From positions 1,612,001 to 1,676,000 of the forward strand of contig NZ_CP040330.1 in NCBI RefSeq assembly GCF_005576615.1: DNA of 64,000 nt, read 5' to 3'. Source of the DNA: Natrinema versiforme (GTDB taxonomy: Archaea; Halobacteriota; Halobacteria; Halobacteriales; Natrialbaceae). The notes below the pieces were generated by a model. The model searched no databases, was not told the origin of the DNA, and saw only the letters and a list, made by a program, of their open reading frames with translations. This document shows positions 7,069-16,908 of this stretch, in pieces. The position numbers and the translations under genes are program-made. Positions within the stretch are counted from its first letter, which is position 1, and each line of letters opens with the position of its first letter.

Positions 7069-7143
7069 GCTCCGTTGGTGTAGTCCGGCCAATCATTTCG
7101 GCCTTTCGAGCCGATGACCTGGGTTCAAATCCCAGACGGAGCA
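7069..7143 (+). tRNA. tRNA-Glu (UUC)
   Basis: A 75-nt cloverleaf: acceptor GCTCCGT (7069-7075) pairs with ACGGAGC (7136-7142), with A7143 as discriminator. The anticodon stem TCGGC/GCCGA encloses the loop CTTTCGA, with anticodon TTC at 7105-7107. The T arm is CTGGG-TTCAAAT-CCCAG. No CCA is encoded and no intron is seen. The DNA just downstream has several broken copies of its 3' half, suggesting it has served as an integration site. Confidence 0.96.
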
Positions 7144-7184
7144 CTCTTCTGAGGAACGACGTGACGAAGAAGGAAGCGCACGCT

Positions 7185-7196
7185 CTGGGATTTGAA
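7185..7196 (-). repeat. Inverted fragment of the tRNA-Glu T arm
   Basis: CTGGGATTTGAA is the reverse complement of the T-arm sequence TTCAAATCCCAG found in the tRNA gene 60 bp upstream. It sits between the gene and the first direct remnant, adding to the impression of a rearranged integration site. Confidence 0.6.
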
Positions 7197-7231
7197 TGAG
7201 AGAAACGCGAGCATCGCGAGCGTTTCGCGTG

Positions 7232-7256
7232 GTTCAAATCCCAGACGAGCATTCTT
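7232..7256 (+). repeat. Remnant copy 1 of the tRNA-Glu 3' end
   Basis: Begins GTTCAAATCCCAGACG and continues AGCATTCTT, matching the T arm and acceptor 3' strand of tRNA-Glu with one missing base (ACGAGC instead of ACGGAGC). It has no matching 5' half and cannot fold as a tRNA. It is best read as a duplicated attachment-type sequence. Confidence 0.7.
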
Positions 7257-7350
7257 CGGCGAACAAACTCGTGAGCCGAAACTGCGGCTCCGGTAATTTG
7301 AATTAGACGAGTCGCAGCACCGAGCGTCGCGAGGTGATCGTCTCGGCGTA

Positions 7351-7390
7351 GTTCAAATCCCAGACGGAGAATCCCAGACGAAGCACTTCT
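7351..7390 (+). repeat. Remnant copies 2 and 3 of the tRNA-Glu 3' end
   Basis: GTTCAAATCCCAGACGGAG at 7351-7369 is a perfect copy of the tRNA T-arm and acceptor strand. It is followed at once by a shorter second copy, AATCCCAGACGAAGCAC. Together with the copy at 7232 this makes three direct remnants within 250 bp of the intact gene. Confidence 0.7.
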
Positions 7391-7526
7391 ACGGCGGTTT
7401 TCGGATAATTCGAGCTTGATCCCTATCGGCCGGTGAGCGCAAACGGATCAATTTCTGCCGGTGTAAGGGTGGAGTCGGTACGTGGTTTTTAGTGGCTTCT
7501 GCGGATTCAACAGAGTCGGGATTTCG

Positions 7527-7535
7527 GATGTCAAG
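7527..7535. repeat. Left 9-bp target-site duplication of the transposon
   Basis: GATGTCAAG lies directly outside the left inverted repeat and is found again directly outside the right inverted repeat at 9486-9494. The bases beyond the two copies differ, so the duplication is exactly 9 bp. This implies transposition rather than chance. Confidence 0.88.
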
Positions 7536-7550
7536 GGCCTTGTTTAGACG
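7536..7550 (+). repeat. Left terminal inverted repeat
   Basis: GGCCTTGTTTAGACG, exact reverse complement of 9471-9485. Marks the left end of the transposable element. Confidence 0.88.
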
Positions 7551-7608
7551 CTGGAGAGGAAGACTCACTCCGGCAAACTAACCACCACCAGAGCCGGAAC
7601 CGAGTAGT

Positions 7609-8433
7609 GTGTCCTCTCGTCTCTCCCGTTTCACAGATCGTCTCGTAACGCTGGCACAACGCGCTGTCTCAGGTGATCCTGCGCCAGCAGTCAAGAAGGG
7701 TGACGGCGGCTACGCTGACTGGGTCATTATTGTGACCCACGGTCTCCGCGAATACCTCGACCTGCCATATCGACGGCTCCTTGATGTCCTTCACGAGATG
7801 CCCGGTATCGTCGAGAAGATGAGTCTCAACGTCAGCCAACTGCCGGACTTTACGACCGTGTGCGCACGGAACCAGCAGCTCCAGATGACGATCTGGCGAA
7901 CTCTGCTTCAGCTCTCTGCCGATCTTCACGATACCGGCGAGGTACAGGCTATCGACGCGACTGGCTTCGACCGGCACTCGGCCAGTCGTCACTACGCAAA
8001 TCGGACAAACTACACCTTCAGATCGGTGAAGACGACTGCGTTAGTTGATTGTGAGACCGGTGCTGTGTTGGATGTCCATTGCTCAATGAAGCAACCGCAC
8101 GACACGCAAGTCGGACGGCAAGTACTTACACGGAACCTCGACCAGCTTCAGACGGTCACTGCCGACAAAGGCTACGACTGGGACGCCCTTCGTCAGCGCC
8201 TACGGGAGGCAGATGTTCGCCCTGTGATCAAGCATCGTGAGTTTGTGCCATTAGATGTAGCTTATAACGTTCGCCAAGATAACAATACCTATCATTACCG
8301 GTCTGCGGTCGAGGCGATCTTTTTCGCTCTCAAACAACGGTATAGCGATACGCTCCGAGCACGAACGTGGTTCGGTCAGTTCCGCGAAATTGTGTTAAAA
8401 TCCGTTGCTCGAAATATCGAGATTGCTATCTGA
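7609..8433 (+). CDS. IS5-family transposase (ISH1-like group)
   Basis: 274 residues from a GTG start. The DDE-type catalytic core is recognisable: first Asp in VQAIDATGFDRH, second Asp in TVTADKGYDWDALRQR, and the Glu region in NTYHYRSAVEAIFFALKQRY, with the Y-x2-R-x3-E (YRSAVEAIF) and K signature of IS4/IS5-type enzymes. The N-terminal part (FTDRLVTLAQRAVSG) matches haloarchaeal IS5/ISH1-type proteins as I recall them. The frame is intact, so the protein is probably functional. It moves the element whose inverted repeats lie at 7536 and 9485. The exact IS name cannot be fixed without a database search. Confidence 0.92.
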   Translation: MSSRLSRFTDRLVTLAQRAVSGDPAPAVKKGDGGYADWVIIVTHGLREYLDLPYRRLLDVLHEMPGIVEKMSLNVSQLPDFTTVCARNQQLQMTIWRTLLQLSADLHDTGEVQAIDATGFDRHSASRHYANRTNYTFRSVKTTALVDCETGAVLDVHCSMKQPHDTQVGRQVLTRNLDQLQTVTADKGYDWDALRQRLREADVRPVIKHREFVPLDVAYNVRQDNNTYHYRSAVEAIFFALKQRYSDTLRARTWFGQFREIVLKSVARNIEIAI

Positions 8434-8542
8434 TTCAGGACACGCTCCTCGCGTGTGATCCGTTTCTATCGGTCAATGTGGGTGACGAATATACTACACT
8501 AGCCGCCGGCCTACCAACTATTTACCAAGAGATTTGAATGTA

Positions 8543-9283
8543 TCAAATGTCTTCAGATTGGAGAAGTTTATCGACAATAGTCTCGGACGATTCGATACGA
8601 CCGATCAACGTAGGATTACCGTCGGAAACGTAGTGGTATTCGGGGACGGATTCCAAGTCTCTGTAGAGATCGATAAACGCGCTGAGGTCATTTGTCTCGA
8701 AATAGGTAATATAATCGTAATCGGTGAGACCGCTGGAATGGTAGAGCTGACGGCGGATACGATCGAGATAGGGAAGCGCCACTTCGATGTGATCTCGCAT
8801 TTTCTCAATACGGTCAGAGTCGGGAAGATTCCACCACTCGGCGTTCTTATCTACTGGGATAATAATTGCGTAGTCTGGCGGTTCCGTTCCTTCGAAGGTG
8901 GCCGCCTTTTCGATCGCATCGAGATCAGGTGTTTGTGGGAGGTAGACGGCATCGCGGATAATCCCAATAAGCACATCGACGAGTTTCGAGTACCGTCCAA
9001 ACGATGTGGCCTGAAACTCTCGGAGGACTTCCTGAGCAGTCGTCAAGTCGTGCGCATGGATACGGACAAGGTAGTCCACTCCGGGGGTAAGCCCACTCAG
9101 TAGATACGTATCAACAAGCACTTCTTCTGACCTGTTGCTATCTTCAAGGATGTTGCTAACTTCTTTAGTGAAGATCTCAACATCATCGTCGGCTGTTTGA
9201 GGCCGCTCAAGTGTATATGCTGCAAACAGTCCAACCACGCCATCCTCTTCGAGCATGTCCGACCCATGGCTAGTTATACCCAT
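8543..9283 (-). CDS. cld: Chlorite dismutase (heme enzyme, long clade I type)
   Basis: 246 residues (237 from the second ATG at 9256). The C-terminal half strongly resembles respiratory chlorite dismutases: IIPVDKNAEWWN, then RRQLYHSSGL and DYITYFETNDLSAF. The proximal heme ligand is predicted as His165 (KMRDHIEV) and the distal Arg as Arg178, spaced 13 residues apart as in characterised enzymes (His160/Arg173 in the Nitrospira defluvii protein); Trp150 lies 15 before the His. The reaction is chlorite to chloride plus O2. Unlike the periplasmic bacterial enzymes, no signal peptide is visible, so it should be cytoplasmic. No perchlorate or nitrate reductase gene is nearby. It lies inside a transposable element. 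Confidence 0.85.
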   Translation of the reverse strand: MGITSHGSDMLEEDGVVGLFAAYTLERPQTADDDVEIFTKEVSNILEDSNRSEEVLVDTYLLSGLTPGVDYLVRIHAHDLTTAQEVLREFQATSFGRYSKLVDVLIGIIRDAVYLPQTPDLDAIEKAATFEGTEPPDYAIIIPVDKNAEWWNLPDSDRIEKMRDHIEVALPYLDRIRRQLYHSSGLTDYDYITYFETNDLSAFIDLYRDLESVPEYHYVSDGNPTLIGRIESSETIVDKLLQSEDI

Positions 9284-9306
9284 GTTCCGACAGGACGTAA
9301 TCCGTC

Positions 9307-9313
9307 TTCATAA
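9307..9313 (-). promoter_or_regulatory. TATA-like box for the chlorite dismutase gene
   Basis: Read on the minus strand the sequence is TTATGAA, centred about 27 nt before the ATG at 9283, the spacing of a haloarchaeal leaderless promoter. It lies inside the transposon, so the passenger gene appears to carry its own promoter. Confidence 0.45.
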
Positions 9314-9470
9314 GGGTACATCCCTACTCCAGTGGCTATTGTCGTTCTGAGGCACCTATCGAAAGTGTCCATGATCTCAGCGATAGATTTACACGCCCAC
9401 CTGACCGAGTGTTTCATTCCGGATTTAATCTAAAGAGTAAGGGGAGCAGCCTCGTTCTACTGTATATCTA

Positions 9471-9485
9471 CGTCTAAACAAGGCC
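9471..9485 (-). repeat. Right terminal inverted repeat
   Basis: CGTCTAAACAAGGCC, exact reverse complement of 7536-7550. Marks the right end of the transposable element. Confidence 0.88.
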
Positions 9486-9494
9486 GATGTCAAG
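9486..9494. repeat. Right 9-bp target-site duplication
   Basis: GATGTCAAG, identical to 7527-7535, directly adjoining the right inverted repeat and 14 bp from the stop codon of the RNase H-like gene. Confidence 0.88.
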
Positions 9495-14557: not shown

Positions 14558-16705
14558 TTACGACTCGGTCGTCTCGTTCGGCTCGTTCGTCTCGTTTCCG
14601 TCCGCCTCGGCTTCCGCTTCGGTTTCGGGCTCTCGCTCGACTTCCGTCTCGTTTTCCTCGGCGGACTCCGGTTCGTCGTCGGCCGTCTCCGATTCGTCGT
14701 CGGCCGTTTCGCCGTCCGTCTCGTCCGCCGGGACGATCCGGTGAACCGCGCCGTCGCCCTCGACCGTCGGCGTGCTGGTGGTGAGGACGTACAGTTCGCC
14801 GTCGGCGTCCCGGCCGAAGCCGTAGACGAGTTGGGTCGGCCGTCCGTCTTCGGCGGCCTCGCCTTCGACCTGCAGTTGCTCGATGGGCCACAGTCCGTCC
14901 CCGGTCGTCCCACCGTCAGCGTCGCTTTCCGTCTCGGTACCGGTCTCCGTCTCGTTGGCGGTCTCGTTGGCGGTCTCGGTTTCGTTCCCGCCGTCGTCGG
15001 TCGGCGGATCGAGGAACATATCCTCGAGGTCATCGCCATCCCCATCGTCGCCGTCGGTCGCTCCCGCTTGGGGACGGGCGAGGAACAGCGTTCCCGGCCC
15101 CTCGCCGTCCTGGCTCCAGTCGCCGAAGACGTACGTCCCCTCGAGTTCGTCGATCTCGTCGCCCTCGTAGAGGTAGCCGCCGGTAATGGAGACGCCGATC
15201 GCCCCGTCGTCACCGGTGTCCTCGCCGCCGCCGTTCTCGCCCTCACCCTCGGCACCGTCGGACTCGAGGATGCCGCGTTCGTGGGGGTACTCGATGACCG
15301 GATCGAGCAGCGGTTCGCCGGCGCGTGGGTCGCCGGCGTCCTCGCTGACCTCATCGGGGCAGTCCTCGGGCGGCTCCGTGGGGGTTTCCGTACTGAAACA
15401 GTGGGCCCCCTCCTTGACGTTCCAGCTGTAGTTGCCGCCGCGCTGGACGTGATTGACGCTCTCGAAGAGTTCCTGTCCGACGTCCGCGAGCAGGAACTCG
15501 CCCTCGCCGGTAAAGGAGAACTCGCCCCACGGGTTGCGCATCCCCCACGCGTAGTACTCGTCGCGGTGTCCTTCGGCATCGACCAGCGGGTTGTCGTCCG
15601 GAATTCCGTAGGCTCGCTCGTCGCTTTCGACATCGATGTCGAGCCGCAAGACGCCGCCGAGGAGGGTCTCCTCGGTGTCCTGTCCGTTGCCGCCCTCGTT
15701 GTCGTCGTACCAGTCCTCGACGTGGCCCTCGTCCGTGTCGTTCGCGCCGCCCCCGTCGCCCGTGGCCACGTAGAGGTAGCCGTCGGGACCGAACGCGATC
15801 GTGCCGGAGTTGTGGTTGAACTGCGGCTCCGGGATCTCGAGGATCGTCCGTTCGGAGTCGGGATCGGCGGTCGAATGGTCGTCGTCCGCCGTCCGGAACT
15901 CCGAGAGGACGAACGTGTGATCGTACTCCTCCGGCGTTCCCTCCCGCGGTGGCGAGCTATACCGGACGAAGAACCGCCCGTTCTCCTCGAAATCGGGGTG
16001 GAACGCGAGCCCGAGGAGGCCGCGCTCGTCGAAGTCCTGAAACTCGATGAGCTGATCCGTGACGTCGAGGAACGGCTCTTCCCGCAGTCCGTCCTCGTCG
16101 TGGACGTAGATGTACCCCGTCTGGTCGACGATGAAGCGGCGATCGGCCTCCTCGTCGGCGACCTGCAGCGTCACCGGCGCGGTCAGTTCGTCGGTGACCG
16201 TCTCGAGGCCGACCGCCGGTCCCTCGCCGATGAGTTGGTCGGACTCGCCGGTCCCGTCGCCGCCGGCCGCGTCGTCGACGAACTCGATATCGCCGCGCAT
16301 CGACTGCGGGTGCGGGCCGCAGTAGTACGTCGACATGCCCTCCTCCGCGGTGAACTCGACGGTCTGCGTTTCGCCCGCGTCCGCGAGGACGTCCGTCGCG
16401 ACGTAGTTCTCGCCCTCCGATTCGCCCTCGATGATGAAGTTGTGTCCGGCACCGTCCTGGTTCTCCCACGTGAGCGTATACTCCTCGCCGGCGACCAACT
16501 GGAGCGTCGGATTGCGTTCGTCCGCGATCGGCTCCGGCGAGACGCCGAGCCAGCCGCTCGTTCGCCCGCCGAGTTCGATCTCGCCGGTGATGGCGTCCTC
16601 CTGTGCCGCCGCCGGCAGCGCGAGGCCGGCCACGGAAAGCGCCGCAGTCGATCGGAGGACCGTCCGCCTCGAGGTCGCCCGTTTGGAGTCGTCGTTTCGT
16701 GTCAT
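14558..16705 (-). CDS. Cupredoxin-PQQ sugar (glucose/sorbosone) dehydrogenase fusion, Tat-exported
   Basis: 715 residues. A Tat signal (TSRRTVLRSTAALSVAGLAL) leads into a plastocyanin-like domain (about 37-147) with type 1 copper ligands His88, Cys129, His132 and Met136 (TYYCGPHPQSM). A soluble aldose sugar dehydrogenase propeller follows (about 160-660), with GLLGLAFHPDF, NHNSGTIAFGPDGYLYVATG, WGMRNPWGEFSF and LLADVGQELFESVN. The C-terminus is a low-complexity Glu/Thr/Asn tail. The fusion suggests electrons pass from PQQ straight to a bound copper. It converges with the PQQ propeller gene; both belong outside the membrane. Confidence 0.9.
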   Translation of the reverse strand: MTRNDDSKRATSRRTVLRSTAALSVAGLALPAAAQEDAITGEIELGGRTSGWLGVSPEPIADERNPTLQLVAGEEYTLTWENQDGAGHNFIIEGESEGENYVATDVLADAGETQTVEFTAEEGMSTYYCGPHPQSMRGDIEFVDDAAGGDGTGESDQLIGEGPAVGLETVTDELTAPVTLQVADEEADRRFIVDQTGYIYVHDEDGLREEPFLDVTDQLIEFQDFDERGLLGLAFHPDFEENGRFFVRYSSPPREGTPEEYDHTFVLSEFRTADDDHSTADPDSERTILEIPEPQFNHNSGTIAFGPDGYLYVATGDGGGANDTDEGHVEDWYDDNEGGNGQDTEETLLGGVLRLDIDVESDERAYGIPDDNPLVDAEGHRDEYYAWGMRNPWGEFSFTGEGEFLLADVGQELFESVNHVQRGGNYSWNVKEGAHCFSTETPTEPPEDCPDEVSEDAGDPRAGEPLLDPVIEYPHERGILESDGAEGEGENGGGEDTGDDGAIGVSITGGYLYEGDEIDELEGTYVFGDWSQDGEGPGTLFLARPQAGATDGDDGDGDDLEDMFLDPPTDDGGNETETANETANETETGTETESDADGGTTGDGLWPIEQLQVEGEAAEDGRPTQLVYGFGRDADGELYVLTTSTPTVEGDGAVHRIVPADETDGETADDESETADDEPESAEENETEVEREPETEAEAEADGNETNEPNETTES

Positions 16706-16908
16706 AGTCTCTCAGTAGTACGCCGTGTCGGATCGCGGATCTCGACCCCTGCGTATCCGCCCGCGTACCGGGTAGCGTGGTGTCGATATCCAGCAATAAA
16801 CCGGTTCGATCGTTCCCCGCTCAAGATCGACTTGTTCGAAATACGGGTCCACAATCACTGCTTAGGACGCCCTAACATCGTCTTTCGGCTCGAGCGAGGA
16901 GGTCTCGG

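Follow-up and report, generated by a model that had tools for sequence, protein, structure and literature searches.

A chlorite dismutase gene as the cargo of an IS5-family unit transposon in Natrinema versiforme, and its place in a haloarchaeal branch of one-gene carriers

The 1950-bp unit at positions 7536–9485 of the window, i.e. the whole 64,000-nucleotide stretch of Natrinema versiforme DNA analysed, is very probably a complete IS5-family unit transposon that carries a chlorite dismutase gene (cld) as its sole cargo and belongs to a haloarchaeal branch of elements carrying one gene each. The unit was read directly from the sequence. Its left terminal inverted repeat of 15 bp (GGCCTTGTTTAGACG; 7536–7550, plus strand), located by mismatch search, has its exact reverse complement at the right end (9471–9485, minus strand). 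The repeats are enclosed by a 9-bp target duplication, GATGTCAAG, the right copy (9486–9494) being a perfect repeat of the left one (7527–7535), and the left copy having a single-copy counterpart in eight congeneric genomes. The two genes inside are convergent. On the plus strand lies an intact IS5-family DDE transposase of 274 aa with a GTG start (7609–8433), identified by profile matches (219.1 bits against the NCBIfam IS5 model NF033579, cut-off 140; 69.4 bits against Pfam DDE_Tnp_1, cut-off 23), and on the minus strand an intact cargo gene of 246 aa, a clade-1 type chlorite dismutase (8543–9283), assigned by profile, alignment with structurally solved relatives and dN/dS. No further genes are present. 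The original prediction had already placed the inverted repeats, the duplication, the IS5-type transposase and cld here, exact to the base.

The 15-mer of the ends was found only at these two places, both in the window when at most two mismatches were allowed (0.03 occurrences expected by chance) and in the whole 4.67-Mb genome when at most one was allowed. Also the whole-element search of the host genome returned a single copy, and the element and end searches of the whole genome revealed neither a second copy nor a MITE. The perfect 15-bp inverted repeats and the short target duplication are those of the IS5 family. The usual IS5 size is about 0.85–1.2 kb with a transposase only, according to a source that gives the range for Ralstonia (PMC7371123). 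Because of its 1950 bp and its extra gene, the window element was filed as a cargo-bearing variant of IS5 and not as a plain IS5 insertion sequence.

The stretch immediately upstream of the cld start, TTATGAAGACGGATTACGTC (9284–9313, minus strand), was identical in the three cld-bearing copies and may be a promoter. The earlier claim that cld has its own promoter at 9307–9313 was accordingly cut back to this conservation, which suggests such a role, and anything beyond it was dropped. Outside the element, degenerate direct copies of the 3' part of a tRNA were observed at window positions 7160–7391, behind tRNA-Glu (7069–7144); pieces of 7186–7372 matched many scattered sites in the host and in congeneric genomes, apparently as a dispersed tRNA-derived repeat.

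The distance from the transposase to the right end was measured for 84 loci (a redundant set) with a recognisable end pair, the ends being located by script. It was 319–1720 bp in all 26 (redundant) loci with a transposase identity of at least 75%, and exactly 40 bp in 50 of the 58 loci below 75%. Six of the other eight were end-coordinate effects or doubtful pairs, and one (L027) was a cargo carrier with a decayed transposase whose identity falls below 75%. The last, L066, with an apparent gap of 820 bp, was rejected as an exception: it is an artefact of the end finder, the true right end lying, with one mismatch, 40 bp after the transposase. A target duplication of 8–9 bp was present in 21 of the 26 redundant near relatives and absent in five. 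Seven cargo-free loci of 967–1078 bp, with transposase identities of 55–65%, bore exactly the window 15-mer at both ends, so the 15-bp ends as such are no marker of cargo. The original prediction had named as evidence against itself such ends bounding a transposase alone while cld stood in a fixed chromosomal context. The former was found at these seven loci; cld was not in a fixed chromosomal context, and the reading of it as a passenger therefore stands.

When redundancy was removed, 18 of the 20 two-ended members of the branch carried one extra gene between the transposase and the right end. The other two, L189 (782 bp) and L190 (964 bp), were remnants without clear cargo, internally deleted or decayed. 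The one-ended fragments L045, L183, L188, L191, L192 and L193 were counted neither way. Two of these fragments have lost much of the transposase and kept their cargo gene together with a right end with two mismatches: L192:3001–4763 (Haloarcula hispanica pHH400) retains the HAD-NUDIX gene and L193:2501–3656 (Haloferax larsenii) the 131-aa membrane-protein gene. The transposase was searched besides in all 125 and 170 genomes of two families. IS5 branches below about 55% transposase identity mostly yielded no end pair, and the survey thus speaks for the higher identities. When viral contigs were searched with the transposase, the 131 pattern matches included no relative, and head-to-tail ends were not found among 202 loci.

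Ten kinds of cargo were distinguished among the 18 two-ended carriers. A membrane protein of 131–133 aa was encoded in four elements, cld and a protein of about 415 aa with HAD-IIA and NUDIX parts (named by Pfam/NCBIfam) in three each, and a 54-aa membrane protein, with sub-threshold Pfam hits only, in two. Single elements encoded a 139-aa exported protein, a 225-aa protein, lipoprotein-like proteins of 169 and 153 aa, a 161-aa membrane protein, and a 70-aa zinc-ribbon protein recognised by Pfam just over the cut-off. The types given for the 131–133-, 54-, 139-, 169-, 153- and 161-aa proteins are our own reading of their sequences. With Pfam/NCBIfam, only the HAD-IIA/NUDIX and zinc-ribbon proteins were named among the nine non-cld cargo proteins, and six had no hit at all. 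PADLOC gave nothing for nine of the ten cargo proteins, cld included; in the HAD-NUDIX protein the NUDIX part alone matched PDC-S07. No similarity at E ≤ 0.01 was detected between cargo regions of different kinds. One carrier of the 131-aa membrane-protein kind (L016:245–2392) has an extra 217-aa frame between the cargo and the right end, which reads as transposase-like and is probably a nested insertion.

The maximum-likelihood tree included 53 transposases, 18 with cargo and 35 chosen without, near-duplicates and loci without a paired end having been left out of the latter. The 18 cargo carriers grouped in a single clade (support 99/95), which branched from within cargo-free elements of 934–1078 bp. 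The cargo label required one change on the tree against 15.1 in shuffles, and the ten kinds nine changes, each kind forming one group. Homologues of two cargoes were found on other plasmids, at 74% and 67% amino acid identity and with no such ends within 2.5 kb. Capture from replicons is therefore plausible, and these outside homologues would also fit a picture in which haloarchaeal IS5 elements of every branch capture cargo often and at random, with nothing special about this one. That view is nevertheless unlikely, as cargo was present in 18 of 18 chosen elements inside the clade and in 0 of 35 chosen relatives outside it, with a single change of label between them. By its tree and anatomy, the branch took up cargo a single time and has held about ten different genes since. 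The initial picture of cld on an IS5 element was in this respect right about cld and too narrow about the element, since the branch as a whole carries about ten cargoes, cld among them.

The assignment of the cargo protein as a chlorite dismutase was based on its profile match, its closest solved relatives and its active-site residues. The protein scored 112 bits against Pfam PF06778 (gathering score 25), and its best solved relatives were the chlorite dismutases 5a13, 2vxh and 3q08, with E-values down to 4e-49 over residues 10–239; the best coproheme decarboxylase match (E 9e-16) was far behind. In the alignment the proximal His is His165, the distal Arg is Arg178 and the Glu partner is Glu215; the spacings of 13 and 50 residues are those of the solved enzyme in the alignment. 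The active-site assignment followed the residue numbering of the bacterial enzymes. The Lys of the active-site network was not located in this alignment. Also the length of 246 aa agrees with the clade-1 (lineage 1) enzymes of the long type (PDB 5a13, 2vxh, 3q08, 3nn1), whose chains were matched over residues 10–239 with the His, Arg and Glu alike. The position of the second-shell Trp of that clade, presumably Trp227, reads Asp in the window protein. The roles of the distal catalytic Arg, the proximal His and the Glu partner, and the division into two clades, are as described in PMC7611857. Plasmid-borne bacterial enzymes, e.g. that of Ideonella, were about 42% identical to the haloarchaeal protein.

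Unlike in the bacterial clade-1 systems, no reductase genes of a chlorate or perchlorate reduction island adjoin cld, the element consisting of transposase and cld. This circumstance, together with the presence of both enzyme types in PF06778 and a best NCBIfam match to HemQ (sub-threshold, 78 bits against a cut-off of 235), would suit a haem enzyme of another function, a coproheme decarboxylase or a peroxidase. Such an identity was considered quite improbable, since the best solved relatives are chlorite dismutases, whose E-values are better by over 30 orders of magnitude, and the distal Arg, proximal His and Glu are kept at the spacings of the solved enzyme. Its family and active-site residues point to an enzyme that, produced within the host cell, would break chlorite down to chloride plus oxygen. 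In Haloferax mediterranei a putative cld, which may or may not be of the window type, was without activity (PMC6650914).

Among 391 haloarchaeal genomes, six encoded relatives of the window protein at E ≤ 1e-20. None of the six gave a match to TIGR03479 above its cut-off, and all six gave weaker ones. The host itself has, outside the window (G000:C2:2266000–2280000; L195:5027–11154), a type II molybdoenzyme cluster with an alpha subunit of 1067 aa, accompanied by frames that we read from their sequences as beta, chaperone-like and haem-subunit-like. The nearest solved structures to the alpha subunit were NxrA of nitrite oxidoreductase (7b04) and PcrA of perchlorate reductase (4ydd), and its score against TIGR03479 was 424 bits, below the cut-off of 985. 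The enzyme is a possible source of chlorite, or possibly a nitrite/nitrate enzyme.

In three of the six cld-bearing genomes the gene lay inside an element of the window type, so that the predicted arrangement of 15-bp ends flanking transposase and cld was recovered in three haloarchaeal hosts: N. versiforme itself, G226 and G175. The copy in G226, an archaeon of another family, is 1950 bp long with identical ends, its transposase being 97% and its chlorite dismutase 99% identical to those of the window. A clear target duplication was not seen at this copy, and its empty site was not found in seven genomes of the genus. The copy in G175, Natronosalvus caseinilyticus, is on plasmid NZ_CP100395, with 88% DNA identity over 1950 bp and an 8-bp duplication. 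When its flanks were joined and one 8-bp copy dropped, they coded for a 140-aa lipoprotein-like protein, of which the same plasmid has an uninterrupted second gene copy at 16430–16849, 96% identical over all 140 residues. The joined flanks and the uninterrupted copy were 98.0% identical over 410 nt without gaps, while dropping 9 or 0 bases forced gaps of 1 or 8. Regardless of how many bases are dropped, the junction is spanned by an open frame, and just the continuation of that frame differs. For the window copy, the expected empty sites without the 1950 bp and one 9-bp copy were likewise recovered: in 8 of the 29 genus genomes searched (own included) the alignment ran unbroken over the joined flanks and showed one target copy, as in L134 (AATGTTAAG), and two further congeneric genomes matched the right flank only.

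The predicted status of cld as the passenger of an IS5-type element moving as one unit, inside one end pair as in transporter insertion sequences, was thus borne out by three hosts, three sites, the congeneric empty site and the uninterrupted Natronosalvus gene. Since the right end of ordinary relatives comes 40 bp after the transposase, cld stands where DNA outside the element would be expected, and one could imagine that a stray second end near a normal IS5 copy has closed off ordinary chromosomal DNA, with no moving unit. This was rejected as very improbable, contradicted as it is by independent insertions: the same enclosed structure was found at three unrelated sites, the target duplications lie at the outer ends, the window copy has a congeneric empty site, and the target gene has an uninterrupted copy on the Natronosalvus plasmid. 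Least credible of all, and rejected, was the reading of the unit as one half of a composite transposon, in which an IS copy on either side mobilises cld in the manner of the bacterial chlorate-reduction transposons. Clark et al. in 2013 reportedly placed cld on composite transposons in bacteria, but the whole host genome has one element copy and exactly two end copies and thus lacks the two flanking IS copies.

The element was also proposed to explain the scattered occurrence of cld in haloarchaea; this held for three of the six cld-bearing genomes (391 surveyed) and not for the other three. A second haloarchaeal cld lineage, 51–53% identical to the window protein (L127:6632–7588 in G118; L128:6831–7787 in G298), lies in a 957-bp block that is 96.6% identical across two genera with unrelated surroundings and no clear edge repeats. 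This block is possibly another mobile route for cld. In G298 it lies between IS-like ends, three similar ones at about 6605, 7835 and 8905 (L128:6605–8905), and the adjoining transposase matches IS1182 below threshold; the block looks as though it, too, were enclosed by an IS. In G201 (L129:6144–8964) a Cld-family gene (43%) adjoins a siderophore-synthetase-like gene with sub-threshold FslA and SbnC/SbnF matches. The search of genome contigs with the Cld protein gave 56 pattern matches and no relative.

Between copies, cld showed dN/dS values of 0.15–0.17; between the window and Natronosalvus (dN/dS 0.17) 33 changes were synonymous and 21 nonsynonymous. The transposase gave 0.16 in the same comparison, and 0.51, from 13 changes only, between the window and G226. 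The low values indicate that both genes are kept under purifying selection. In the window–Natronosalvus pair the transposase value is as low as that of cld, so the cargo is not the sole target of selection. Over the cld and HAD-NUDIX genes together dN/dS was 0.11–0.21, the 131-aa membrane-protein gene gave 0.58–0.72, and the 54-aa gene had a single change between copies. The transposase frame was broken in nine of the 18 cargo carriers (L014, L016, L017, L027, L041, L042, L044, L064 and L184), and the cargo frame was open in all 18, which for the kinds seen once follows from how the frame was chosen. The open cargo frames even where the transposase has decayed suggest that the hosts retain the cargo in its own right.

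In the proposed mechanism, the transposase would act on the 15-bp ends and move the whole 1950-bp unit, cld included, the biochemistry of movement being what is expected of the DDE transposase family. New insertions would receive an 8–9-bp target duplication; insertion as a unit is shown by the duplications together with the empty sites and the separate locations of the copies. Present-day transposition, expression of cld and chlorite activity of the window element are inferred. The space between the transposase and the right end would serve as the cargo slot, for one gene each, and for some kinds recombination between the transposase and the right end, both of which they share, may allow swapping. 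A stretch of 70 nt just inside the right end was alike among the HAD-NUDIX, 225-aa, zinc-ribbon, 161-aa, 54-aa and 153-aa kinds (identity 0.55–0.84, z 1.8–11.6; the best pair being the 225-aa and HAD-NUDIX kinds) and less so in other kinds. Swapping through shared flanks fits some kinds because of this common stretch of about 70 nt. The cld element showed no such likeness (z at most 1.1) and, as its common right side is the 15-bp end only, fits an independent capture by way of a further copy of that end. The wider reading, in which this haloarchaeal IS5 branch is a dedicated one-gene shuttle whose slot was gained once, whose exchangeable single genes, cld among them, have moved between distant haloarchaea, and whose cargo is retained by the hosts in its own right, may equally well hold or fail.

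The nearest named elements in annotated plasmids are ISHtu1 and ISNma1 (69% and 67% transposase identity), of the haloarchaeal IS5 branch, which have an NF033579-type DDE transposase, similar short ends and an 8–9-bp target duplication as well. In haloarchaeal IS5 relatives of 934 bp the transposase starts about 73 bp from the left end, as in the window element. The difference is on the right, where the cargo-free relatives compared (934–1078 bp) end 40 bp after the transposase and the window element, at 1950 bp, has a second, unrelated gene. No IS name was attached to the cargo-clade members listed in annotated plasmids. Transporter insertion sequences (tIS), defined in PMC3129680 as insertion sequences with passenger genes unrelated to transposition, likewise combine one transposase and a non-transposition gene inside one end pair; here, in contrast, a whole clade bears cargo, of about ten kinds. 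A Halorubrum lacusprofundi transposon with the surface-protein-like passenger gene Hlac_3088 (PMC10544981) is also haloarchaeal and has a single passenger gene, the likeness being one of description only. Searches of the open-licence literature found no IS5 example of a transporter IS in haloarchaea, no cld-bearing IS5 element and no haloarchaeal IS5 cargo clade.

Wide horizontal transfer of cld, with occurrences in archaea, is reported in PMC9751292, and the element provides a concrete vehicle for the scattered haloarchaeal cld in half of its known occurrences in our sample. Very small archaeal IS elements can thus be gene carriers. With about ten cargo genes, mostly of unknown family, in one slot, the ends are usable for finding exchanged cargo genes of haloarchaea, and two 15-bp ends with one transposase make a simple genetic system for testing cargo transposition in archaea.
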